Made by a program: the position numbers and the translations under genes | NCBI GenBank assembly: GCA_020342235.1 | Contig: CP073219.1 | Coordinates: forward strand, 868,001-932,000 | Length of the DNA: 64,000 bases | Direction: 5' to 3' | Source of the DNA: Saccharomycopsis phalli | Lineage: Eukaryota; Ascomycota; Saccharomycetes; Ascoideales; Saccharomycopsidaceae | Shown here: in pieces, positions 1,425 to 62,945 of the stretch | How positions within the stretch are numbered: position 1 is the first letter of the stretch | Layout of the letters: every line of letters begins with the position of its first letter | Notes under the pieces: generated by a model | Seen by the model: only the letters and a program-made list of their open reading frames with translations | Told to the model about the DNA's origin: nothing | Databases searched by the model: none

Positions 1425-4400
1425 TTACACCACCCCAGTATTGGACCGCGAAAACGAAGCATACTTCTCAAACGGATCCTTGGAAACCTCATGGTCAACC
1501 AACGCCTTTCTGGTCCGTCTGAGCTGGATTCTCTTGAACCACTTCCAAGCTTCAGCACCAAGCAAGAATAGAACCGTCACTCCCGCAACCACACCCCACT
1601 CGTAGCCAATTCCCTTGTGGAGAAACACCTTGGTGTTGATCACGGGAATGTAAATCACCGGAAACACGCTAAAGAAGCCAACGACAATGGACCAGAACAA
1701 AAACTGGTTCTTCCAAAGATCCAGCGCCGTCTGTCTCCACCACGGCTTGTCTGTATCTCTGTTCATGTAGAACAACGAGTTGACCGGGTGGAGACACTCC
1801 CAGGCCAAGATCAACGCACACCAAGTCATGGTGGAAAACGACGCCGCTCTTCCGCGAAAAACCAAGTCGCAGACATTCGAATTCGAGCTGGTGTCGTTGC
1901 AGTTGACTCCCAAGTACCCGTCTCCCTTGCCGTACACAATGATGACAAAACTCAAGAGACACGACACTGACATCCACAAGCCATAGGCAAAAGTGTCAAT
2001 GATCAACTCCCAAGTGAAGATCCGCGAGTCTGGCGGGGTCTCCAAGATATCTGGCGCCGCGTGTTCTGCTGCTAGACCAATCGCCGGGAACACCGACGTG
2101 GCAACAATCACCCAAAGAACTTCGACTGGCGACAATGGAAACACCGAGAAGCCGCTCTGGTCAATGAACGCCAAGCCGATCATCAAATAGAGCGCCTGGG
2201 CCACGTTCTCAGCGAGCAATTGTAGCACAAACTTCTTGATGTTCGCCGACATTCGTCTTCCTTCCTCGACGGCGTTCAAGATCGAAGCAAAGTTGTCGTC
2301 GGTAAGAACAATGTCCGAAGCCTCCTTGGCGACATCAGATCCGTTCAAGCCCATGGCAACACCCACGTCGGCCTTTTTTAACGACGGAGAGTCATTGACT
2401 CCGTCTCCGGTCATGGCTGCAAATTTGGACCGACGGTGCAACGCGTCAATCATCCGCACCTTTGTTTGCGGAGCACAGCGCGCAATCACCAAGGGCAAAA
2501 CCGGTAACGCGTCGATTTGGTGGTCGGTCAACTTGTCAAAGTCTGGTGCCGACATTGTCATGGAGTCAACGACCTCTTGGCTGTAATGATACAAGTTCCG
2601 AGGCAAGATGCCGACCTCTTGAGCAATGGCTTTTGCAGTTAGGAAATGGTCGCCTGTCAACATCCGGACGTTGATTCCTGCCTTGTGACAGAGTTTCACC
2701 GAGGGACCGGACTCGACTCGTGGGGGGTCGTAAATACCAACCAATCCATGGAAGACGAGTTTGCGCTCGACTTGGTTTCTGGACGTGACGTCGATGGATT
2801 CACCGGTGATGTTTCTGGATGCCAATGCCAATACACGGAGGCCCTGTGAGGAGAGTTCTGTCATTTGTTTTTCAATGTAGTGTCTGTCTGTTTCAGTCAA
2901 GGGAGATGGTTCAGCCAATGGAGATGGTTTTGTCGCCTCAGAAGGTTTTGTCATCTCAGATGGTTTTGTCGCCTCAGAAGGTTTTGTCATCTCAGATGGT
3001 TTTGTCGCCTCAGTTTGTTCAGTACCGCACCACAAATCACAACACTCCAAAAGCCTCTCAACAGCCCCCTTGGCATACACAACCATCTCTTGCGACCCAT
3101 GGCAAACATACACCGAGCTCATCCGCTTAATTGCCGAGTCAAACGGATGCTCAGTGACATGCTTATACTTGTTGCCCAAGTCCAGCTTCGAAAAACCCGC
3201 AAACCGAGTTGCAAACACCCGGATTGCGACTTCCGTCGCATCGCCATGGGCATTCCACCCGTCGTCAGATTCCACCACAGAAGCAATGTTGGCCAACCCT
3301 GCAATGGTCAAGTAGTCGCGCAAACTTCCAGGTAAAGTCTCGGGCAAATCAGACAAAGTCTCAGAAGACAAGTCGCGGCCGAACCGCAACTCGCCCACAT
3401 GTGGATTGTACACATCGCTGGTGTTGTCCACCGAGATAAACCCAAACCCAGGGATCCAGGCCTTGCGGACCAACATCTTGCCCTGGGTCAAGGTGCCGGT
3501 TTTGTCGGAGCAGATGTCGTTGATGCCGCCCAAGACCTCCAAGGAGTCCAATTTCCGCACAATGACGTGCCGCTTGACCATGGCATGCGCGCCAATCGAC
3601 ATTGTGATGGTGAGTACCACCACAAGCCCCGACGGGATCATGGAAAGCGCCACGCAAATCGCGTATATCGCGACCTCCTTGTTGACCCTCATTTTCTGCG
3701 ACGCCATCACGACTATCGCAAACAACACCGCGACAAAGAACAAAATCACCGCAAGCCAGCTGAGTTTCCGCTGCAACGGTGTGCCCACGTTGGTCCCCAA
3801 GATATTGCCCACGACCAGTCCTACTGCCCGGAGAATCGCCCGGGGATATCCTTTGGACGTGTCGAGGGCAAAGAGCGACTTTTCCGCCTGCAACGACTGC
3901 GCAATCTTCCCAATCTCCGTCTGCAACCCGGTGCGGATCACAACGCCCGTGGCCCGGCCCTTGGTAACCACCGACGAACAATAGACGAGATTCAAGCGGT
4001 CGCCCACAGGAACAAACTCCGAGGTATCATAGACAACCTCGTGGTTCTTGCTGATCGGGAGCGACTCGCCGGTCAAAAGCGCCTCGTCGGTCTCCAAGTT
4101 CACCGACTCCACGAGCCTCAAGTCGGCAGGAACCGTGTCGCCGACCCGAATGTGGACAATGTCGCCTGGCACGGTATCCTCGGCCAGAATCGTAATGTCC
4201 TTGCCGTCTCTGGTGCAGTGCGACGTGGGACTCAGGAGCGTTTTCAAGCTGCCCATGGTCTTCTCGGCCTTGATCTCTTGCACAAAGCCGACAATGACGT
4301 TGAGAAACACCACAAAGGTAATGACGCCGCCGGAGATCCAGTCCTTGACGGCAAACGCAATGATCAACGAGATGATCAACACGAGGATCATCCCGTTGAA

Positions 4401-24876: not shown

Positions 24877-24879
24877 TTA

Positions 24880-25010
24880 AGTACAATAAACAGACTACAA
24901 TAAACAGATTTACAATAAACAACTATCTGCAATACATGGCTATCGATGATAAACAAATCTACAATAAACAAATTTACAATAAACAAATCTACATTAAACA
25001 GCCATCGACG
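24880..25010. repeat. Minisatellite immediately after PFK2
   Basis: About eight copies of TACAATAAACARATT begin within a few bases of the stop codon and extend through the likely 3' UTR. AATAAA is part of each unit, so the array also multiplies a polyadenylation-like signal. Confidence 0.8.
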
Positions 25011-25249
25011 AAAAACAGCCATCTACATGTAATATAATGAGACTTTACTTTTCAACTCCATTCTCGCTGATTCAAACTTTTGACACAATGGAAATAACCT
25101 AGCCAAGTCCATTCCTTCCCACAACATGGTCTTTCTCATGACTTTTTATTCTTTTTTGAGCATCTTTAATCTTTTCTCAACCTTTTTGTTCTAGTAAGAA
25201 TATCTTGACTTTCTTTCAACCTTCTGATATAAACTTTTAACATACAGGT

Positions 25250-25499
25250 TGTAATGTAGTAATTAAGATACGTGTTGATAAGATAGTTAGAATATATTCG
25301 CTTGACCTATTTAGAGGGCGAGATTCGCTATATAAGTGGTGACGGTGTCAGGAAAGGAGAGACGTAAGCGTACGGCACTGCTGCCTTAGTATTGCCTCAA
25401 CTGGTCAAAGGAATGTGTTTAGGGTAATTATCTAATACTAATCGTGGGAGTTGGAGTCTTGTATCAAAAAGAATTAAGGTAGGTACGGACTTTATTACA
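25250..25499 (+). mobile_element. Solo LTR of an LTR retrotransposon, with target duplication
   Basis: A 250-base element begins TGTAATGTAGTAATTAAGAT and ends GGACTTTATTACA, with TGTAAT/ATTACA inverted ends. It is flanked by a direct 5-base duplication CAGGT at 25245-25249 and 25500-25504. The copy at 51078-51317 (minus) aligns along most of its length, sharing for example AAAGAATTAAGGTAGGTAC. The duplication is intact, so insertion is fairly recent. No internal region is present, consistent with LTR-LTR recombination. Superfamily (copia or gypsy) cannot be told from the LTR. Confidence 0.88.
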
Positions 25500-25599
25500 C
25501 AGGTAATGGTCTAGTCAACTATTTCCATCTGACAGAGAGAATCAGTCGAGTGAATATTTGAATATTTATCCACACGTATTTTAGTTATTATGTTACACT

Positions 25600-25880
25600 A
25601 CAAGGCTGTATCTAAAACTGTATCTACAAGACAATATGAACAAGACTAAATCTACAAACTGCATCTACAAACTGTATTTACAAACTGTATTTACAAACTG
25701 TATTTACAAGACTGCATCTACAATTAAACAAGACATATTTACAATTAAACAAGGTGTACTACAATTAAACAAGACATATCTACAATTAAACAAGGCGTAC
25801 TGCAATTAAGCAAGACGATATAAACAAGACTGCATCTACAAGATTGTATGTACAATTGTATATGCACAATCATATATGCA
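25600..25880. repeat. Minisatellite downstream of the GH76 gene
   Basis: It contains mixed units of about 15-20 bases (CTACAAACTGTATTTA, ACAATTAAACAAGACATAT, ATATGCACAATCAT). The array lies between the solo LTR and the stop of the minus-strand GH76 gene at 25943. Confidence 0.8.
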
Positions 25881-25942
25881 CAATCATATGCACAACACCT
25901 ACACATTTACAACATCCACAATATAAATCATTAACGTGTTTA

Positions 25943-29634: not shown

Positions 29635-29845
29635 CCCGGTGACTCATGTAGTCTTTTGAGATGAGATGCGTCCGGGTAATGTCCAGAGGTAGCTGTGGGA
29701 GTGATGATTGGGACGCAATGATTTGGACATTGCATGCATCCGGGTAACCATTGATGTGAGAGTGGTGATTGGGACGCAATGATTTCAAAATGAGATGCGT
29801 CCGGGTAACGCATCAATAACCGTGGGAGTGGTGACTGGGGACATA
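29635..29845 (+). repeat. Tandem array carrying TTACCCGG-type sites, reaching the SSQ1 start
   Basis: About three units of 65-75 bases read GTGGGAGTGGTGATTGGGAC, then CAATGATT, then GAGATGCGTCCGGGTAA. CCGGGTAA occurs at 29672-29679, 29740-29747 and 29801-29808. The last unit's ATGATT is the ATG at 29846, so the array runs right up to the coding region. Confidence 0.75.
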
Positions 29846-31750
29846 ATGATTCGGGTGATACATGGGGGAATGCGACTTGGAATCGCGGCCAGGAGATATT
29901 CGAGCCGGCTGGCGGTGATTGGCATTGATCTTGGTACGACAAACTCGGCAGTGGCACTAGTTGAAGGGAAGGACGCGCGAATAATCGAGAACGAAGACGG
30001 CAAGCGCACCACGCCGTCGGTTGTGGCGTTTTCCAAGGACGGGCGGGTTTTGGTCGGCGAGGCGGCGCGGCGTCAGGCGGTGGTGAACCCAGGGAACACG
30101 TTTTTTGCGACCAAACGGCTCATTGGCCGGCGGTTCGAGGACCAGGAGGTCCAGCGCGACTTGAAGAACGTGCCATACAAAATCGTGCCGAGCAGCAACG
30201 GAGACGCGTGGGTTGAGACGCGCGGCGGGAAGGCGTATTCGCCGACGCAGATCGGCGCGTATGTCTTGGAAAAGCTCAAGACGCTCGCCGAGAGCCATGT
30301 GGGACAACCGGTGGAAAACGCGGTGGTGACGGTTCCTGCGTACTTCAACGACGCGCAGCGGTCGGAGACAAAGACCGCCGGCTCGTTGGCCGGATTGACC
30401 GTGCTCCGGGTAGTCAACGAGCCAACAGCAGCCGCATTGGCCTACGGCTTGAGCAGCAAAAAGTCCGGCTTGATTGCGGTCTATGACTTGGGTGGAGGCA
30501 CTTTTGACATCTCGGTGTTGCACATTGATAGCGGGGTGTTTGAGGTGCTAGTCACCAACGGCGACACCCATTTGGGCGGGACCGATTTTGACCTGTTGTT
30601 GGTAAACAAGGTCGTCGAGCATTTCAAGACCACCAGCGGAGTTGATTTGTACGAGCAGGGCGACATGGCCGTGTTGCTGCGGCTCAGAGAGGCGTGCGAG
30701 GCCGCCAAGATCGAGTTGTCTCACGTTCAGGAAACATCCATCCGGATCCCGTTTGTCCACGGGCAGAAACACTTGGAGTATCCCTTGACCGAGACCCAGT
30801 TGGACACAATGTCCGAGGACTTGATCCTGCGCACAGTGGCACCGGTGCACAAGGCCTTGAAGGATGCGGAGATCGAGCCGCGGGAAATCGACGAGGTGAT
30901 TCTTGTTGGCGGCATGACCCGCATGCCCAAGATCCGCGAGACGGTCGCCCTGCTCTTTGGCAGAAAGCCCAACACCCTGGTGAACCCTGACGAGGCAGTG
31001 GCTCTTGGAGCAGCAATCCAGGGCGCCGTGTTGTCTGGCGAGATAAAAAACGTGCTCTTGTTGGACGTGACCCCATTGACGTTGGGAATCGAGACATATG
31101 GCGGAATATACTCGCCGCTCATTCCACGGAACACCACCATCCCGTACAAAACCACTCTGACGTTTTCCACTGCCGTCGACGGCCAGACGTCCGTCGATAT
31201 AAGCGTCTACCAAGGCGAGCGGCCCTTGGTCAAGGACAATAAGCTCATTGGCCACTTCAAGTTGAGCAACATCCCAGTGGCTCCAAAGGGCGGGCCGAAG
31301 ATCGAGGTGTCGTTTGACATTGACGCAGATGGCATCATCGAGGTCAAGGCCACAGACCAAGCAACCAACAAAGACGCGTCCATCACCGTCAGCGGCTTAT
31401 CGGGATTGACACAAGAGGAGGTCAGCCGCATGGTGCAAGAAGCCGAGCAGAACAAACACGTCGACAAGCAACGCCAGGCAATCCTACAACATGCCAACAA
31501 CGCTTCACTTATTGTCACCGATGCAAAAGATGCGTTGGGAAAGTACGGGCTGTTCATCACAGATCACAACCTTGCGTCAGGGCCCATGGAAAACGCGTTA
31601 CATGACTGTGACGTGTTGGTGAACAAAATAAGACAAGAGGGTATAACCGATGGCAGTGTGGTCGCCGATCTCAAGCAAAAAACCGACACCATCCAGGCTG
31701 AAAGCGTCAAGTTGTTTTCTCAAATTGCAAAGCTACAGCTGGGCAAATGA
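29846..31750 (+). CDS. SSQ1: Mitochondrial Hsp70 specialised for Fe-S cluster biogenesis
   Basis: Ssq1 works with Jac1 to release Fe-S clusters from the Isu1 scaffold in the mitochondrial matrix. The nucleotide-binding domain starts IGIDLGTTNSAVA and has DLGGGTFDISVL and VGGMTRMPKI. The substrate domain and a short C-terminal lid end in QLGK without the long tail of Ssc1. GEIKNVLLLDVTPLTLGIET and SPLIPRNTTIPYK fit Ssq1 better than Ssc1. The frame opens at 29795, but that ATG is inside an upstream repeat. ATGs at 29846 and 29870 give presequences (MIRVIHGGMRLGIAARRYSS or MRLGIAARRYSS) that look mitochondrial. CTG codons at 30827, 30950 and 30977 sit where homologues have Lys/Asn, Lys/Asp and Ala/Ser, supporting CUG as serine. 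Confidence 0.92.
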   Translation: MIRVIHGGMRLGIAARRYSSRLAVIGIDLGTTNSAVALVEGKDARIIENEDGKRTTPSVVAFSKDGRVLVGEAARRQAVVNPGNTFFATKRLIGRRFEDQEVQRDLKNVPYKIVPSSNGDAWVETRGGKAYSPTQIGAYVLEKLKTLAESHVGQPVENAVVTVPAYFNDAQRSETKTAGSLAGLTVLRVVNEPTAAALAYGLSSKKSGLIAVYDLGGGTFDISVLHIDSGVFEVLVTNGDTHLGGTDFDLLLVNKVVEHFKTTSGVDLYEQGDMAVLLRLREACEAAKIELSHVQETSIRIPFVHGQKHLEYPLTETQLDTMSEDLILRTVAPVHKALKDAEIEPREIDEVILVGGMTRMPKIRETVALLFGRKPNTLVNPDEAVALGAAIQGAVLSGEIKNVLLLDVTPLTLGIETYGGIYSPLIPRNTTIPYKTTLTFSTAVDGQTSVDISVYQGERPLVKDNKLIGHFKLSNIPVAPKGGPKIEVSFDIDADGIIEVKATDQATNKDASITVSGLSGLTQEEVSRMVQEAEQNKHVDKQRQAILQHANNASLIVTDAKDALGKYGLFITDHNLASGPMENALHDCDVLVNKIRQEGITDGSVVADLKQKTDTIQAESVKLFSQIAKLQLGK

Positions 31751-31843
31751 ACATGTGTTTTGCAATTGCAAATTACAGTTGGGTAAGTTAACATGGGTTT
31801 TTGCAAATTGCAATACTATACCTGGGTAAATGAACATGCGTGT
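31721..31843 (+). repeat. Three-unit tandem repeat crossing the SSQ1 stop codon
   Basis: Three units of about 41 bases start CAAATTGCAAAGCTACAGCT, GCAATTGCAAATTACAGTTG and GCAAATTGCAATACTATACC, and each ends near GAACATG or TAACATG. The first unit includes the last codons of SSQ1 and its TGA; the next two lie in the 3' flank. The array therefore arose by tandem copying of the gene's own end. Confidence 0.88.
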
Positions 31844-35704: not shown

Positions 35705-37261
35705 ATGTCTGAGAAACACTCACACGAGTCGGTAGCACAAGAATTATATGACAAGCACCAGGAACTCAATTCCAGATACGCTGATGTTGCGGTTGGGTTT
35801 CTCCATGAGCACGACCACCTAGTACCCGAAATAACTCCCCAGCAAAGCTATGCTTTGAGAAACAAGTTGGTGTTCCGCGTCCTTGGATTGACGTTTCTCA
35901 TCAACTTGTTAATGTACATGGACAAGGCTGCGCTTGGGTACTCGTCCATTTCTGGATTTTGGGAGCACACTGGGTTAGACCAGGACAAGTACAATAACGT
36001 AAACACGATCTTTTATGTTGGCTTTATTGTTGGCCAAGTGCCGGGCACATATCTTATTCTGAAGTACCGTTTGAGCCGGTTGATTCTTACGATTACCGTG
36101 TTTTGGTCCATCATCATCTTCCTCCACTGTGCTGCATACAACTATGCCGGTGTGATTGTGCTTCGCTTTTTCTTGGGTTTCTTTGAGTCGGTGTCGATTC
36201 CAATCTTGACCACGACAAATGGAATGTTTTTCAACCGGCACTTTCGCGAGTTGACCCAGCCAATCTTCTATGTCTCATGCATGATCTCGCCCATCCCAAT
36301 TGGATTCATATCCTTTGGGACTCTCCATGCACACACGACGTTTGGCGACTATAGAATCTTAAACATTATAATCGGCGGCCTCACCCTCCTTCTTGCCGTG
36401 GTTGTGTACTTTTTCTACCCCGACAACCCGATCCAGGCAAAGTTTCTCACCACCGAAGAGAAAATATGGACCATCCGAAGCGTCCAGAGCACATCACACA
36501 TCTCCATCGAACAGAAGGTCTTCAAGGCCAAGCATGCCAAGGAGTGTCTAACCGACTATGTGTCGTGGCTCATTGCCGGGTTCTTTCTTCTCCAGCAGTT
36601 GGCCAACAACTTGTCATATCAGCAGAACCTCTTGTTCACAAACATGGGAGGAATCAGCAACATTGACTCCACCCTTGTGTCGGTTGCTGGTGCTGGGTTT
36701 GCGTTTTTCTGGTCGATTACCGCTTGTCTCTTTCTTTGGGTCTTCCCAAACACAACTTGCCTCACAATCATATGGACCACGCTCCCAGCTCTTGTCGGCT
36801 CCATTGTCGCGGTCTCGTTGCCATGGAGCAACACAATCGGAGAACTTGCGGCAATCAGCTTGGCGTCCCAGTCGTTTGGCGTGGGCTGGATCTGTGCCTT
36901 GGGTCTAGCGCAGACCACTGCTGGTGCATCTTACACCAAGCGAATCACCAGAAACGCACTTATGATGTTTACTTATTCGATTGCCAATATCATATCGCCT
37001 CAGTTGTGGCAGGCTAAAGATGCGCCTCGTTACAAGCCTGCGTGGATCGTTCAGATTGTGCTCAGTTTCTTTACTGCACCAGCACTAATTGGTGTTGTGT
37101 GGTTTATTCTTAGACGACGTAACATCAAGCGAGCAGCAAAGCTAACTGCGGAAAAGGAGGTGGGAGTGGTGAAAGATGCAGATGGTGAAGATATTGTGAT
37201 CAACATTGCTGCCCTTGACTTTACCGATCTCGAGGATGAGACTTTTATATATCCGACGTGA
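35705..37261 (+). CDS. MFS permease of the Dal5/anion:cation symporter family
   Basis: A plasma-membrane proton symporter for a small organic anion; relatives carry allantoate, pantothenate, nicotinate, biotin or thiamine precursors. It has 518 residues and twelve predicted helices. A hydrophilic N-terminus leads into LRNKLVFRVLGLTFLINLLMY, and helices 4-5 contain RFFLGFFESVSIPILTT. YPDNPIQAKFLTTEEK follows helix 6, a hallmark of this family, and the tail ends LDFTDLEDETFIYPT as in Dal5-type proteins. The substrate cannot be told. The end of the coding region overlaps a tandem repeat. Confidence 0.88.
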   Translation: MSEKHSHESVAQELYDKHQELNSRYADVAVGFLHEHDHLVPEITPQQSYALRNKLVFRVLGLTFLINLLMYMDKAALGYSSISGFWEHTGLDQDKYNNVNTIFYVGFIVGQVPGTYLILKYRLSRLILTITVFWSIIIFLHCAAYNYAGVIVLRFFLGFFESVSIPILTTTNGMFFNRHFRELTQPIFYVSCMISPIPIGFISFGTLHAHTTFGDYRILNIIIGGLTLLLAVVVYFFYPDNPIQAKFLTTEEKIWTIRSVQSTSHISIEQKVFKAKHAKECLTDYVSWLIAGFFLLQQLANNLSYQQNLLFTNMGGISNIDSTLVSVAGAGFAFFWSITACLFLWVFPNTTCLTIIWTTLPALVGSIVAVSLPWSNTIGELAAISLASQSFGVGWICALGLAQTTAGASYTKRITRNALMMFTYSIANIISPQLWQAKDAPRYKPAWIVQIVLSFFTAPALIGVVWFILRRRNIKRAAKLTAEKEVGVVKDADGEDIVINIAALDFTDLEDETFIYPT

Positions 37262-49312: not shown

Positions 49313-50326
49313 ATGACTGATAAGATAGTGGGAATTGAGTCGAATAGAGTGACAAATGTGTCGAGCAACGATATCCCGGGGTACTTGGCGGGCACAGACT
49401 TGGCGTGGGATATTGAGAAGTTCAAGTCGACGTTTGATATCGACATTCAGCACTTGACTGATAAAGTGGCCAACTTCGACTTGATCAATATCGACACCTC
49501 GATTGCGAATGCGTTCCGGCGGATTATGATCGCAGAGGTTCCGTCTGTTGCCGCAGAGACCATATATATCTTCAACAACACGTCTGTGATTGCCGACGAG
49601 GTGTTATCGCACCGGATCGGGCTCATTCCGTTGAAAGTGGATCCCGACGTGTTGTCGTGGGTGGACAACTCGGGCGACAACGAAGAGGAAAAGTTCACCG
49701 ACGACAACACGATAGTCTTGTCGTTGAACGTCGCCTGTACCGTGAACCAGCTGGCTCCAAAGGGCGCAACCGACCCTCGAGAAATGTACAATAATGCCCA
49801 TGTTTATGCGCGCGACTTGAAGTTCGAGCCTCAAGGTAAGCAGGCCGAGCTCTTCAAAAACAGCCCCGTGGAGCCAGTCAACCCAGACATCTTGTTGGCA
49901 AAGCTTCGGCCCGGCCAGGAGATTTCGTTGACGGCACACTGCATTTTGGGGGTTGGCTCGGATCATGCAAAGTTCTCGCCAGTGGCCACTGCGTCGTATC
50001 GGTTGATGCCTGTGATTGATATCTTGCAGCCTATTGAGGGGAACGACGCCAAGAAGTTCCAAAAGTGTTTCCCACCGGGGGTCATTGGCATCAATGAGGA
50101 CGGGAGTGCATATGTCAAGGATAGCAGAAAGGATACAGTATCGCGGGAGGTGTTGCGACATGAGGAGTTCAAGGGGAAAGTGAAGCTTGGACGGGATCGG
50201 GGGCGGTTTATATTCAATGTGGAGACTGCAAGTGCCATGTCTCCAGAGGAGATTTTTTTCAAGAGTGTGAGAATCCTCAAGAACAAGGTGGAGTACTTGA
50301 AAAACTGTCCAATTGGGCAGGTGTAG
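49313..50326 (+). CDS. RPC40: Shared RNA polymerase I and III subunit AC40
   Basis: AC40 pairs with AC19 as the alpha-like assembly platform of RNA polymerases I and III. The ATG at 49313 (MTDKIVGIESNRV) gives 337 residues, close to the 335 of S. cerevisiae. The frame is open further upstream but without ATG. The alpha motif is DTSIANAFRRIMIAEVPSVAAE. The dimerisation parts and the C-terminal FFKSVRILKNKVEYLKNCP are all as expected. The leader holds a four-codon upstream reading frame (ATG at 49212), out of frame with RPC40, and a T-rich tract followed by CACTGCACAG that could be part of a leader intron. The last codons are the likely seed of the array that follows. Confidence 0.95.
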   Translation: MTDKIVGIESNRVTNVSSNDIPGYLAGTDLAWDIEKFKSTFDIDIQHLTDKVANFDLINIDTSIANAFRRIMIAEVPSVAAETIYIFNNTSVIADEVLSHRIGLIPLKVDPDVLSWVDNSGDNEEEKFTDDNTIVLSLNVACTVNQLAPKGATDPREMYNNAHVYARDLKFEPQGKQAELFKNSPVEPVNPDILLAKLRPGQEISLTAHCILGVGSDHAKFSPVATASYRLMPVIDILQPIEGNDAKKFQKCFPPGVIGINEDGSAYVKDSRKDTVSREVLRHEEFKGKVKLGRDRGRFIFNVETASAMSPEEIFFKSVRILKNKVEYLKNCPIGQV

Positions 50327-50685
50327 GGTGATGACTGGCGGGAGGGATTGAAACATTGACAAATGGGAAACATGACTGCCAATTGGTGGCATAAAGTGCT
50401 TAAACTGGCCAATTGACAGTATAGATGCTTAAAACTGGCCAATTGACAGTATAGAATACTTGAAAACTATTGACAGTAGAGTGCTTGAATCCAATGACAA
50501 ATGTAGAGTATTGAATGCAATGACAAATGTAGAGTACTTGAAACTGTCCAATAGAAGGTATAGCGTGTGTTGAATCCAATTGATAGGTGTATAGTGCTTG
50601 AAATATATCCAATTGAAGGTATAGAGTATTGAATCCAATGACAAATGTAGAGTACTGAAGTCTATTCAATTAAAGGTACAATAAT

Positions 50686-50955
50686 AATATTTATTTTTGT
50701 ATTTCGCTATATATTGTCTCCAGCATTATGGTTATTCGACAGATGTATTTTCATTCAGGAACATCCTGAGGCAGCATTGCTGATAAAGAAAACCCTTTGT
50801 CAATTCTCATTTGGTTGCTTGGGACTAAAAACTTCAATGGTAGCAGCCGTATTGTTGGTACTTGGTGCTTGTATTGATTGTGTAAGAAGCCTGGTCACCC
50901 TTGTTGTCAAATGTGACCGCTGAATCACATTATATGTTGGAGGAATCACATTCCA
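50686..50955. repeat. Dispersed degenerate repeat inside the RPC40 array
   Basis: It matches 860-1000 (GCTATATATTGTCTCC, CAGGAACATCC, GAGGCAGCATTGCT, AAAAACTTCAAT). Its end (CTGGTCACCCTTGTTGTCAA) matches about 53128. Near 50934-50957 a small palindrome TGTTGGA...TCCAACA lies at its edge. It is probably an old element fragment; its age is greater than that of the LTR at 51078. Confidence 0.5.
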
Positions 50956-51077
50956 ACACGTTCTGATAAAAATTGAAAGTAAAGAGTACTTGAAATATAT
51001 TCAATTGAAGGTAGAGGGTATTGAATCCAATTGAGAAATGTAGAGCGATCCAATTGAAGGTATAGAGAAATACAATT

Positions 51078-51317
51078 TGTAAAGTTCGTACCTACCTTAA
51101 TTCTTTCTGATACAAGACTCAAACTCCTACGATGACTATCAGATATTTACCAAAACACATTTCCTAGCCTGTGACGCATCACAAGACATTTGTGCCTTAC
51201 GTCTGGTCTCTCCTTTCCCGGTTACTTCGCCACTACATAGAGCCTGCCTTATTCCAATAGGGCAAGCAAATATATTATAACCATCTTATCAACATGTGTC
51301 TGAGTTACTATATTACA
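51078..51317 (-). mobile_element. Solo LTR inserted in the RPC40-derived minisatellite
   Basis: A 240-base element on the minus strand, beginning TGTAATATAGTAAC and ending CGAACTTTACA, is flanked by the 5-base direct duplication CAATT (51073-51077 and 51318-51322). CAATT is part of the minisatellite unit, so insertion happened after the array had formed. It is a close relative of 25250-25499. No internal region is present. Confidence 0.87.
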
Positions 51318-51705
51318 CAATTGAAGGTAAGTGTACATGAAAAGCTGTCCAATTGACAGTATATAGTGCTTGAAAACTATTGACAAATGTAGAGTATTGA
51401 ATCTATTCAATTGAGGGTATAGAGTCTTGAATCCAATGACAAATGTAGAGTAATCCAATTGAAGGTATAGAATAATCCAATGACAAATGTAGAGTAACCA
51501 CTAAAGGTATGAGAAATCCAAGTGACAAATGTAGAGTAACCCAATTGACAAATGTAGAGTAACTCAATTGACAAATGTAGAGTAACCCATTGAATATATA
51601 GAGTAACGATTGAAGGTATGAGCAGCCATTAAGGCATGAACAACCATTTAGACATCAACCCACTGAGCTTATTTAGACATCAACCCACTGAGTTTGCCTA
51701 CACAC

Positions 51706-52469
51706 CTATACATGCTCCGTGGCCCTCACTGGCAGAACATCATTGTCCAATGTTCCTTCCATAAACGAGTCCATCTTCCATGCGTCGCGCAAAATCAGAA
51801 ACACCCCTATCGTGAGCGCATTCATCTCCCCAGAATACCCGTCGCCCTCCTCCAGATCAGGTTCGCCCGGCAGCTCCACCGTCTCGATGTAGCACATGGC
51901 AAACATGCAGAATTGCACCACAAGCACCACACAGTCGTTGAGCAAGATCTTCAACTTGCTGTGACACACAGGCTCGCCAATTAACTGGAGCGTAAGACCC
52001 CCGTGGGTGTAGCCATGAAATCCCGGGCGTTCCCCCGCGGTGTAGTCGGAAAAGAGGATTCTCGTCAAGATCACATAGCCGTTGGTGACGAGCGTGGCAA
52101 AGTAGAGCACCTTGGTGATTTGCTGCTTCTTCTGCCGGGAAAAATGCATAATGGTGCCCGGCGGAAACGGACTCGCCGACATGGCCTGGACAAAGCATCG
52201 TAGAAGAAGCGTGACTAGCGATAGGCTGAAGTTAGTCTTGTCGGCAAACCGCACCACCATACTTACTCAAGGAGGTACACATAGATTATCCAGGTATACC
52301 CGAGGATCTCAAAGCCACTCCTTATATCATTGAAAAACATGGCCCTCCGCGTCTTGCGGTTGTTTTTATTGCTTACGCCCAAGTCCCCGTCCGTCATGTA
52401 CTCATTGATGTTAACCATGCTAAAACAGGGTACATGAATCACTCCAATCTCCTTGGGTGCCACCTGCAT
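51706..52469 (-). CDS. DUF1746 membrane protein, Dsc4-like (one intron)
   Basis: Exon 1 is 52469-52267 and exon 2 is 52225-51706, joined in frame to 240 residues. The junction reads GYTWIIYVYLL-DLSLVTLLLRC, rebuilding a continuous pair of membrane helices. That pattern (short N-terminus, ...YVYLLDLSL..LLRCFVQ.., then further helices around VTNGYVILTRILF and CVVLVVQFCMFAMCYIE) fits the fungal DUF1746 family. S. pombe Dsc4, a subunit of the Golgi Dsc ubiquitin ligase complex, belongs to that family as far as I recall. The gene assignment is firm; the family call is from memory. The C-terminus is acidic (PGEPDLEEGDGYSGE). Confidence 0.75.
52226..52266 (-). other. 41-base intron of the DUF1746 gene
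   Basis: Donor GTAAGTATG, branch GACTAAC, acceptor TTCAG four bases on. It splits an Asp codon (GA/C) and joins two open frames that each lack half of the protein. Confidence 0.85.
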
Positions 52470-59693: not shown

Positions 59694-62600
59694 ATGCCAG
59701 AGAGTGACAAGATCAGCATTGAATACACTATAAAGAATACTCCACAGTCTCAAGAGAGTCAATTGGGCAACACAGACGAGTTCTACCGTCTACCAGTGAA
59801 GGATGTCGAGAGTCACTTTGGCTCAAATGTCGAGACGGGATTAACTAGCGCCGAGGCCGAGGCTGCTCTCAACAAGTACGGGCCCAACTCCTTGGGCGAG
59901 GGCCTGAAAATTTCCTATACCAAGATTTTGGCGCACCAGGTCTTCAACGCCATGATTCTTGTATTGATAATCTCGCTAATCATTGCGTTTGCAATCAAGG
60001 ATTGGATTTCCGGCGGAGTCATTTGTTTTGTCGTTGCTTTGAATGTTGTGGTGGGGTTTGTGCAAGAGGTCGATGCCGAAAAGACAATGGGCTCGTTAAA
60101 AACTCTTTCCTCGCCGTCGTCACACACTATACGAAACGGCGAAGATGTCACCATTCCCGCAGACCAAACTGTCCCCGGTGATATTGTCCATATTGGCGTT
60201 GGTGATACCGTTCCTGCCGACATGCGGCTTATCGAGACCATGAACTTGGAAACCGACGAGGCGCTTTTGACCGGCGAGTCTCTTCCAATTGCAAAGGACC
60301 ACACCCTTGTTTACGGAGGCAGCGACCCGATTCCCGTTGGAGATCGCTTGAATATGGCCTACAGTTCCTCGATTGTCTCCAAGGGAAGAGGCACTGGAAT
60401 CGTGGTCAAGACAGGACTCAATACCGAGATTGGCAAAATCGCAAAATCGTTGCAAGATAACGGCCTGCTTATCCGGAAAGTTGACAAGTCCAACAACAGA
60501 AAGCCAAAGAAGAGAGAGTACACTTTTGCTGTCGCTGGAACCATCAAGGACGTCATTGGCAACGTCTTGGGGATTTCCACAGGTACTCCCTTGCAGAGAA
60601 AATTATCGTGGTTGGCTATAATTCTTTTCTGGATCGCCGTGGTGTTTGCAATAATTGTCATGGGCTCACAAAGAATGAGAGTCAACAAAGAGGTGGCAGT
60701 TTACGCCATTTGTGTCGCCTTGTCAATGATTCCTTCGGCTTTGATTGTCGTTCTAACCATCACAATGGCAATTGGAGCCCGTGTGATGGTCAAGCGGCAC
60801 GTTATTGTGCGAAAGATCGATTCGTTGGAAGTCTTGGGAGGTATCAACGACATTTGCTCGGACAAGACAGGAACATTGACTCAAGGAAAGATGATTGCCA
60901 AAAAGGCTTGGATACCAAACGTCGGAACCTTCTCGGTGGAGAATTCAAACGAGGTTTATAACCCAACTGTTGGTAACGTTGACTTTTTCAAGAGCAAGTG
61001 CCCTGCCTCAGTTGAATCCAATTATGAAGACGGGAAGCCTTTGAAGCCAATCAACGTCCCCGAGCCTTTGCCTCATGGATTCGCCAAGTGGTTATTTATT
61101 GGTGGATTAGCCAACATTGCCTCTGTTCGAAAAGTCCAGGAGGAGGGAGAGGAAAAGGATACTTGGAAAGCCCATGGCGATGCAACCGAAATTGCAATTA
61201 GAGTATTTACTACGAGATTCGCAGACTTTGCAAAAGAAAAGTTGGATGAGGAATATGAGCACATCAGAGAGTTTCCTTTTGACTCCTCCATCAAACGCAT
61301 GAGTTCGATTTTCGTAACCAAAGATACACACGAAACACACGTATACACCAAAGGTGCAGTCGAGCGGATTTTGAACTGCTGTGAGTCCTGGTACGGTGCC
61401 GCTGATGATTCCAGCGATCTATATGATAATTCCGAGCCGATTCCTTTGACTGAAGAAGATAAGCATTACATTGAAGAGCAAATGACTGTGCTTTCGTCAC
61501 AAGGATTGCGGGTTTTGGCGTTAGCATCCAGAGACATTAGCGAGGAAAATATTGATGCTACCGAAAGAGACCAAGTCGAGTGCAAACTTGTGTTCCAAGG
61601 ATTGGTAGGAATATATGATCCTCCAAGAATTGAGACAGCTCCTTCAGTGAAGTTGTGTCACAAGGCCGGCATAAATGTCCGAATGTTGACTGGTGACCAT
61701 CATCTTACAGCCAAGGCCATTGCTCAAGAGGTGGGGATTTTGCCTCGAAACTTGTACCATTACAGCGAGGATGTGATCAAGGTCATGTCTATGACTGCTA
61801 ATGAGTTTGATAGCTTGACTGACGATCAAATCGACGCATTGCCGGTTTTGCCCTTGGTGATTGCACGCTGTGCTCCTCAAACCAAGGTGAGAATGATTGA
61901 TGCGTTGCACCGTCGGTCCAAGTTTGCAGCCATGACAGGAGATGGAGTCAATGACTCTCCGTCGTTAAAGAAGGCCGACGTGGGTGTTGCCATGGGCTTG
62001 AACGGATCAGATGTTGCGAAGGAGGCTTCGGACATTGTTCTTACCGACGACAACTTTGCTTCGATCTTGAATGCCGTCGAGGAAGGAAGAAGAATGTCGG
62101 CGAATATTAAAAAGTTTGTGTTACAATTACTCGCTGAGAATGTCGCCCAGGCAATCTACTTGATGGTGGGACTTTGCTTCGTGGACCAGTCTGGCTTTTC
62201 TGTGTTCCCGTTGTCTCCAGTGGAAGTGCTTTGGATTCTTGTGGTAACGTCGTGCTTCCCAGCAATTGGATTGGCTGGCCAGGCGGCTTCACCTGAGATT
62301 TTGGAAGAATCGCCAGATTCGCGGATTTTCACCAAGGAGGTCATTATCGACATGTTTGCCTACGGATTGTGGATGGCTGTGTGCTGCTTGGTCAACTTTG
62401 TCATCATTGTCTATGGCAAGGGCGACGGATACTTGGGTGTTGACTGTAACACCAACAGCGCAAGTTCACATACATGCGACTTGGTGTTCCGGGCGCGATC
62501 TGCGTCATTTGCAACCATGACTTGGTGCGCCTTGATCTTGGCCTGGGAGTGTATACATCCGACCAACTCGTTGTTCCACATGAACCAGGCGACCGATCAC

Positions 62601-62945
62601 CCATGGTGGAAGCAAACTGCAATTGATCTTTGGGGCAACCAGTTTTTGTTCTGGTCGGTGATCTTTGGCTTTGTCACTGTCTTCCCGGTGATCTACATCC
62701 CAGTGATCAACACCAAGGTGTTTCTCCACAAGGGAATTGGCTACGAATGGGGTGTGGCTATTGCGTTTACGGTTTTGTTTTTATTGGGCGCCGAGACCTG
62801 GAAATGGATCAAGAGAATTTACCTTCGGCACGCTGCTGCCAGAAAGGCCACCAACCCAGAGTATGAGTTGGAGAGAAACGACCCGTTTCAAAAGTACTCT
62901 TCGTTTTCCAGAGCCAACACCGGGAACTCCACCACGTTGGTTTAG
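59694..62945 (+). CDS. ENA: ENA-type P-type Na+/K+-exporting ATPase, paralogue 2
   Basis: A plasma-membrane cation efflux pump of the fungal ENA family. The ATG at 59694 (MPESDKISIEY) gives 1083 residues. Upstream the frame is open but has no ATG. The N-terminal cation-ATPase domain is complete (FYRLPVKDVESHFG), then LLTGESLPI, Asp 390 in CSDKTGTLTQG, MLTGDHHLTAKAIAQEVGIL, TGDGVNDSPSLKKADVG and the C-terminal helices ending SSFSRANTGNSTTLV. It is clearly homologous to the gene at 1425-4625 along its whole length but lacks the TKPSE array. The segment 61900-62110 is nearly identical to the paralogue even at synonymous sites. Confidence 0.96.
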   Translation: MPESDKISIEYTIKNTPQSQESQLGNTDEFYRLPVKDVESHFGSNVETGLTSAEAEAALNKYGPNSLGEGLKISYTKILAHQVFNAMILVLIISLIIAFAIKDWISGGVICFVVALNVVVGFVQEVDAEKTMGSLKTLSSPSSHTIRNGEDVTIPADQTVPGDIVHIGVGDTVPADMRLIETMNLETDEALLTGESLPIAKDHTLVYGGSDPIPVGDRLNMAYSSSIVSKGRGTGIVVKTGLNTEIGKIAKSLQDNGLLIRKVDKSNNRKPKKREYTFAVAGTIKDVIGNVLGISTGTPLQRKLSWLAIILFWIAVVFAIIVMGSQRMRVNKEVAVYAICVALSMIPSALIVVLTITMAIGARVMVKRHVIVRKIDSLEVLGGINDICSDKTGTLTQGKMIAKKAWIPNVGTFSVENSNEVYNPTVGNVDFFKSKCPASVESNYEDGKPLKPINVPEPLPHGFAKWLFIGGLANIASVRKVQEEGEEKDTWKAHGDATEIAIRVFTTRFADFAKEKLDEEYEHIREFPFDSSIKRMSSIFVTKDTHETHVYTKGAVERILNCCESWYGAADDSSDLYDNSEPIPLTEEDKHYIEEQMTVLSSQGLRVLALASRDISEENIDATERDQVECKLVFQGLVGIYDPPRIETAPSVKLCHKAGINVRMLTGDHHLTAKAIAQEVGILPRNLYHYSEDVIKVMSMTANEFDSLTDDQIDALPVLPLVIARCAPQTKVRMIDALHRRSKFAAMTGDGVNDSPSLKKADVGVAMGLNGSDVAKEASDIVLTDDNFASILNAVEEGRRMSANIKKFVLQLLAENVAQAIYLMVGLCFVDQSGFSVFPLSPVEVLWILVVTSCFPAIGLAGQAASPEILEESPDSRIFTKEVIIDMFAYGLWMAVCCLVNFVIIVYGKGDGYLGVDCNTNSASSHTCDLVFRARSASFATMTWCALILAWECIHPTNSLFHMNQATDHPWWKQTAIDLWGNQFLFWSVIFGFVTVFPVIYIPVINTKVFLHKGIGYEWGVAIAFTVLFLLGAETWKWIKRIYLRHAAARKATNPEYELERNDPFQKYSSFSRANTGNSTTLV

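Follow-up and report, generated by a model that had tools for sequence, protein, structure and literature searches.

A minisatellite apparently seeded by the end of RPC40 in Saccharomycopsis phalluae, and higher tandem-array cover between convergent genes

The gap between RPC40 and its convergent neighbour in Saccharomycopsis phalluae is occupied by degenerate tandem units like TAGAGTACTTGAAACTGTCCAATTGAAGGTA, which resemble the final codons and stop codon of RPC40 itself. Comparison of gene, array and related proteins establishes both the homology and its direction, from gene to array, with the RPC40 tail as the seed. The favoured reading, to which a probability of about 0.8 is assigned, is a single-locus minisatellite that would have arisen by tandem duplication of approximately the last 33 bases of RPC40, grown, and later been interrupted by two repeats. 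This is a clear case with a nameable minisatellite seed, since conservation of the protein shows which of the two ends is the older. A first-pass annotation of the same DNA had gone further and proposed that coding 3' ends recurrently expand into downstream minisatellites in this genome. That claim is replaced by one on gene orientation that can be tested: within the sample analysed, array cover near gene edges is approximately six-fold higher in convergent gaps.

The window is a stretch of 64,000 nucleotides (C8:868001-932000); the assembly it comes from has eight contigs and 14,148,124 bases. The sample comprised the window plus 250 kb taken from all eight contigs (314 kb, 118 ORFs), in which ORFs of at least 150 codons, without intron models, were treated as genes. 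Gaps containing N (2500 N bases in L006), gaps shorter than 40 bp, and L001 and L002, which are copies of the window, were dropped. S. phalluae is a yeast responsible for yellow rot in an edible mushroom (PMC8468998). A passage of its genome paper puts repeat sequence at 87.05% (by BLAST) and mini- and microsatellites at 0.07% (PMC8468998). Tandem Repeats Finder (TRF; score 40, period of at least 7) covers 4.8% of the 314 kb sample, which is far above that 0.07%, the methods being different. The features of the RPC40 locus, in window coordinates, are as follows.

49313-50326, + strand: RPC40 (RPAC1, AC40) coding sequence, with Pfam RNA_pol_L and RNA_pol_A_bac and 70-85% identity to 10 RPC40 proteins
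50286-50326, + strand: putative seed, the last codons and stop of RPC40, with edges AGGTGGAG and AGGTGTAG 33 bp apart; profile match at 50291-50315
50378-50679, + strand: array block 1, mostly 25-31 bp units (TRF rows and cut-out units)
50680-50968 (ends approximate), strand not assigned: dispersed repeat within the array, matched at 89-91% by at least 41 other pieces (40 scored out of 348 first-look candidates)
50969-51077, + strand: array block 2, which matches block 1 at 86% across 75 bp
51078-51317, strand not assigned: solo-LTR-like element, TGTAA...TTACA, with 5-bp flanks CAATT (51073-51077 and 51318-51322)
51318-51625, + strand: array block 3, a long tail-like unit first, then units of approximately 20-23 bp toward the far end
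51706-52260, - strand: convergent neighbour, DUF1746 protein (Pfam PF08508), an upstream exon being possible

The last 60 bases of RPC40 align to the array unit at 50526-50552 with a score of 37 (25 of 29 columns identical, one gap of 2 bases), and to the unit at 51324-51355 with the same score. The mean for 60-base pieces along the whole of RPC40, tail included, against the same downstream DNA is 18. The similarity noticed in the first-pass annotation is thus upheld, but its length is nearer 29 bases than the 35 or so originally given. As a raw match the tail is high, not unique. Among 41,190 comparisons (60-mers of the 314 kb sample in steps of 15, both strands), it is the second-best distinct place against the array, and an unrelated place, L009:4426-4500, scores 40 on the strength of one 30-base match. 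That result could be taken to favour a chance likeness between the array and the gene end. A profile of the units alone, for which 14 of 26 excised units were used and the gene was left out, is more telling and argues the other way: after eight matches in the array, the ninth is the RPC40 tail, with 15.9 bits at 50291-50315 and an E of 0.0053 across the 314 kb, while the best match elsewhere reaches 6.8 bits and L009:4426 is absent among the profile matches listed. Chance is consequently a very remote explanation. Equally remote is the possibility that the array is older and invaded the end of RPC40. Similarity alone carries no direction, but the tail KVEYLKNCPIGQV is kept in 10 relatives, with KAEYLRNCPIGQV as the terminus in S. 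crataegensis, and this contradicts an array-first origin. The 10 proteins were picked from 120 listed, and eight of them carry yeast names. In all 11 rows, the window's own included, the C-terminal residues K, Y, L, C and P are invariant and the protein ends agree to within two residues. Since the tail is conserved in all 10 relatives, the RPC40 end is taken as ancestral and the array as derived, and the seeding of the array by the gene tail, as first suggested, is borne out by this conservation together with the unit-profile match.

Searches of the whole genome point to a single locus. The unit as typed in the first-pass annotation has one genomic occurrence within 3 mismatches (50529-50563, 1 mismatch). 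Array queries across the whole genome listed this locus alone, in a coarse search that distant kin could escape; the same query misses the RPC40 tail, and the 60-base tail used as a query matches only itself (E<=10), not even the array.

Minisatellites consist of head-to-tail units of roughly 10-100 bp, and the RPC40 array, with head-to-tail units, TRF periods of 23-59 and 26 pieces of 20-45 bp, belongs among them. Megasatellites have units longer than about 100 bp, usually in coding frame. Those of Candida glabrata are likewise yeast tandem repeats, but the units of the RPC40 array, at 20-45 bp and past the stop, are much shorter and lie outside the reading frame. TRF marks 519 of the 1379 bases of 50327-51705, and the first 50 or so bases past the RPC40 stop have scant unit structure. 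The array had been described as kilobase-scale; two dispersed repeats had been counted in, and with both removed the array to 51640 amounts to 780 bases, including the first 50 poorly structured ones. Multi-unit blocks recur within it, one at 80% across approximately 124 bp and one at 86% across 75 bp. The unit at 51333-51355 in block 3 is very near the RPC40 tail (91% over 23 bp) and sits 1 kb from it; for this reason the idea that unit age simply changes with distance from RPC40 was rejected. The short units at the far end (approximately 20-23 bp) were probably shortened by deletion.

The element at 51078-51317 has several features of a solo LTR, namely TG...CA ends, CAATT on both flanks and dispersed copies (42 further matching pieces at 72-94%, the best near-full-length copy at 82%). 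Removal of this element with one CAATT restores a continuous array unit, and array units lie on both sides of the repeat at 50680-50968. For these reasons both dispersed repeats most likely landed after the array had formed. Another copy of the solo-LTR-like family is found at 25250-25494 (- strand) of the window, with CAGGT on both sides, in an array-rich convergent gap (24877-25942).

A plausible route for the birth of the array is suggested by short direct repeats at the edges of the putative seed. AGGTG occurs at 50286 and 50319, 33 bp apart, and this pair is the only repeat of at least 5 bases at a distance of at least 10 bases in 50281-50336. It extends to 8 bp with one mismatch (AGGTGGAG and AGGTGTAG), and the second copy contains the stop codon. 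The end of RPC40, approximately 33 bases, would have been duplicated in tandem past the stop, and the probable route is replication slippage from one of the two short repeats (AGGTGGAG, AGGTGTAG) to the other. Slippage of the nascent strand once the stop had been copied would spare the gene and leave the copies in the 3' flank. The array could then have lengthened to approximately 0.8 kb through more slippage or through unequal exchange, in part by several units at a time, after which units would have been shortened and the two dispersed repeats inserted. The array most likely persists because it lies in a convergent 3'-3' gap without a promoter. Two observations count against this reading: the scant unit structure of the first 50 bases past the stop, and array units that read TAGAGTAC, two bases off the simplest predicted junction, so that slippage is a probable rather than a proven route. 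GGTATAG and ATGTAGAG variants are found in the units. Nothing in this analysis suggests a function for the array.

Similar first steps have been described elsewhere. According to the model of Haber and Louis (1998), to which passages of PMC3389668 and PMC6947457 refer, minisatellites arise between direct repeats of 5-10 bp. The RPC40 locus resembles this model as cited there, since the putative first unit is bounded by a 5-bp direct repeat (AGGTG, at a distance of 33) and a single locus carries degenerate units of 20-45 bp. It differs in that a stop codon closes the RPC40 seed, which would make the unit mostly coding in origin. In rad27-deletion strains of Saccharomyces cerevisiae, a passage of PMC5677150 describes duplications of the form ABA to ABABA via short direct repeats, one of which also lies between two genes. 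The predicted first step is the same; those duplications are fresh and were formed in a repair mutant, whereas the RPC40 array is old and decayed. Within the sample, 7.4% of 2217 intergenic 45-mers reach a local-duplication score of 24, compared with 0.3% after shuffling. Because intergenic DNA is this rich in local duplications, the birth of an array looks routine here.

The proposal that gene tails are special seeds, which some biased process would expand into downstream minisatellites again and again, was examined by comparing stops with starts, coding DNA and intergenic DNA of the sample. Besides RPC40, there are three clear stop-straddling cases (SSQ1, L006:6972 and L023_27:36147). One of these lies in the window:

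31714-31838, + strand: array across the stop of SSQ1 (31748-31750), the window's second of this kind; 40 bp x 3

The gene called SSQ1 has an HSP70 match, and the seed proposed for its end is confirmed by an array that straddles the stop with a score of 39. The other two genes named in the first-pass annotation did not fare so well. The ALA1 tail is weak (score 21, with rank P 0.033 against other flanks, in one comparison; score 20, a 10-base match, in another) and that of the MFS permease gene scores 15, although a TRF array begins at 37258, within the last bases of the latter gene; on these tail scores both were rejected as convincing coding seeds.

When the last 45 bases were compared with the next 150, the threshold score of 32 was reached or passed by 3/101 stops and 1/109 starts; among the control positions the tally was 7/354 in coding and 26/344 in intergenic DNA. 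Outside the window the counts were 2/82 stops and 0/90 starts. RPC40 stays below the threshold here (score 25), its best copies being too distant for this short range. With 1 kb flanks and a score of at least 36, 2 of 84 tails (RPC40 and L023_27:36147) stood against 1 of 90 starts (SSQ1). The mean for the tails of 84 genes against their own downstream kb was slightly above control (17.3 versus 16.4). TRF arrays crossed four stops and only one start, where random shifts predict 4.0 and 4.1 respectively. These small excesses at stops lean toward a tail bias, but the stop-start difference has a Fisher P of 0.35, arrays over stops are as numerous as expected, and the rate at stops exceeds neither the coding nor the intergenic rate. 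On the stop, start, coding and intergenic counts and the TRF shifts, a genome-wide seed bias of coding tails was therefore rejected in this sample; recurring expansion of gene tails is improbable. The excess of downstream over upstream that had been predicted survives in array cover, which within 200 bp is 15.2% after stops versus 5.7% before starts (15.8% versus 3.5% with each base counted once), but not in the similarity of stops versus starts.

The excess of arrays after stops is attributable to convergent gaps. Within 200 bp of a gene edge, arrays take up 25.1% of the DNA (bootstrap 13.6-37.6) in the 25 convergent gaps. In the 38 tandem gaps they take up 4.6% (stop side) and 3.4% (start side), and in the 25 divergent gaps 3.5%. 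The comparison is post hoc, and one version omits the window, where the idea arose: there, cover is 16.7% in 20 convergent, 2.6% in 31 tandem and 3.6% in 19 divergent gaps (permutation P=0.0018). Arrays of any extent occur in 17 of 25 convergent gaps versus 21 of 59 others (P=0.0085), and 8 of the 25 have an array cover of 0.00. A stop-side excess within tandem gaps was rejected, since the 4.6% and 3.4% are close and the mean cover of gap halves runs the opposite way (0.049 stop side versus 0.091 start side, 29 gaps). Gaps longer than 3 kb were left out of the gap-occupancy, half-gap and bootstrap comparisons. All five convergent gaps of the window hold arrays, with 35-75% cover; SSQ1, ALA1, the MFS gene and RPC40 all have convergent neighbours and border four of these five. 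The stop-crossing TRF arrays (SSQ1, L006, L009 and L023_27) and the RPC40 array are likewise all in convergent gaps.

The simplest cause of this accumulation is the absence of promoters between convergent genes. Convergent pairs might instead promote the birth of minisatellites, with converging transcription, positive supercoiling and cohesin leading to slippage or breaks. Convergent zones of S. phalluae would then be hot spots and RPC40 one product, a duplicated block that happened to include the tail. Both the near-edge cover, in the whole sample and outside the window, and the any-array counts speak for this idea, and a passage of PMC8360656 describes an enrichment of positive supercoils in the DNA between convergent genes of S. 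cerevisiae. Relaxed selection without a promoter predicts the same pattern, however, and the contrast weakens over whole gaps (8.9% versus 4.8% and 3.5%; P=0.077 outside the window), the bootstrap interval for the difference, for all gaps up to 3 kb, being -0.014 to 0.162. Over the last 150 coding bases, arrays cover 3.1% where the neighbour is convergent (8 of 62 genes) and 1.4% where it is tandem (3 of 39), too few genes to tell. Promotion of birth by convergence is rather unlikely, as is the corresponding hot-spot origin of the RPC40 array, and duplication of the RPC40 tail followed by persistence in a promoter-free gap is preferred. No description of the array pattern itself was found in the literature, at the level of titles and the beginnings of abstracts.

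A few other arrangements were seen. The 49-bp array at L006:6952-7141 takes in the final 21 bases of a gene and the entire 169-bp gap behind it, as far as the end of the convergent neighbour. A 61-bp duplication (1.9 copies) at 29694-29809 of the window spans the first ATG of the SSQ1 ORF; it may belong to the 5' flank rather than to coding sequence if the true SSQ1 start is further in. Two genes that resemble each other lie near the two ends of the window (1425-4391, - strand, and 59694-62945, + strand) and are candidates for P-type ATPases, perhaps ENA-like.
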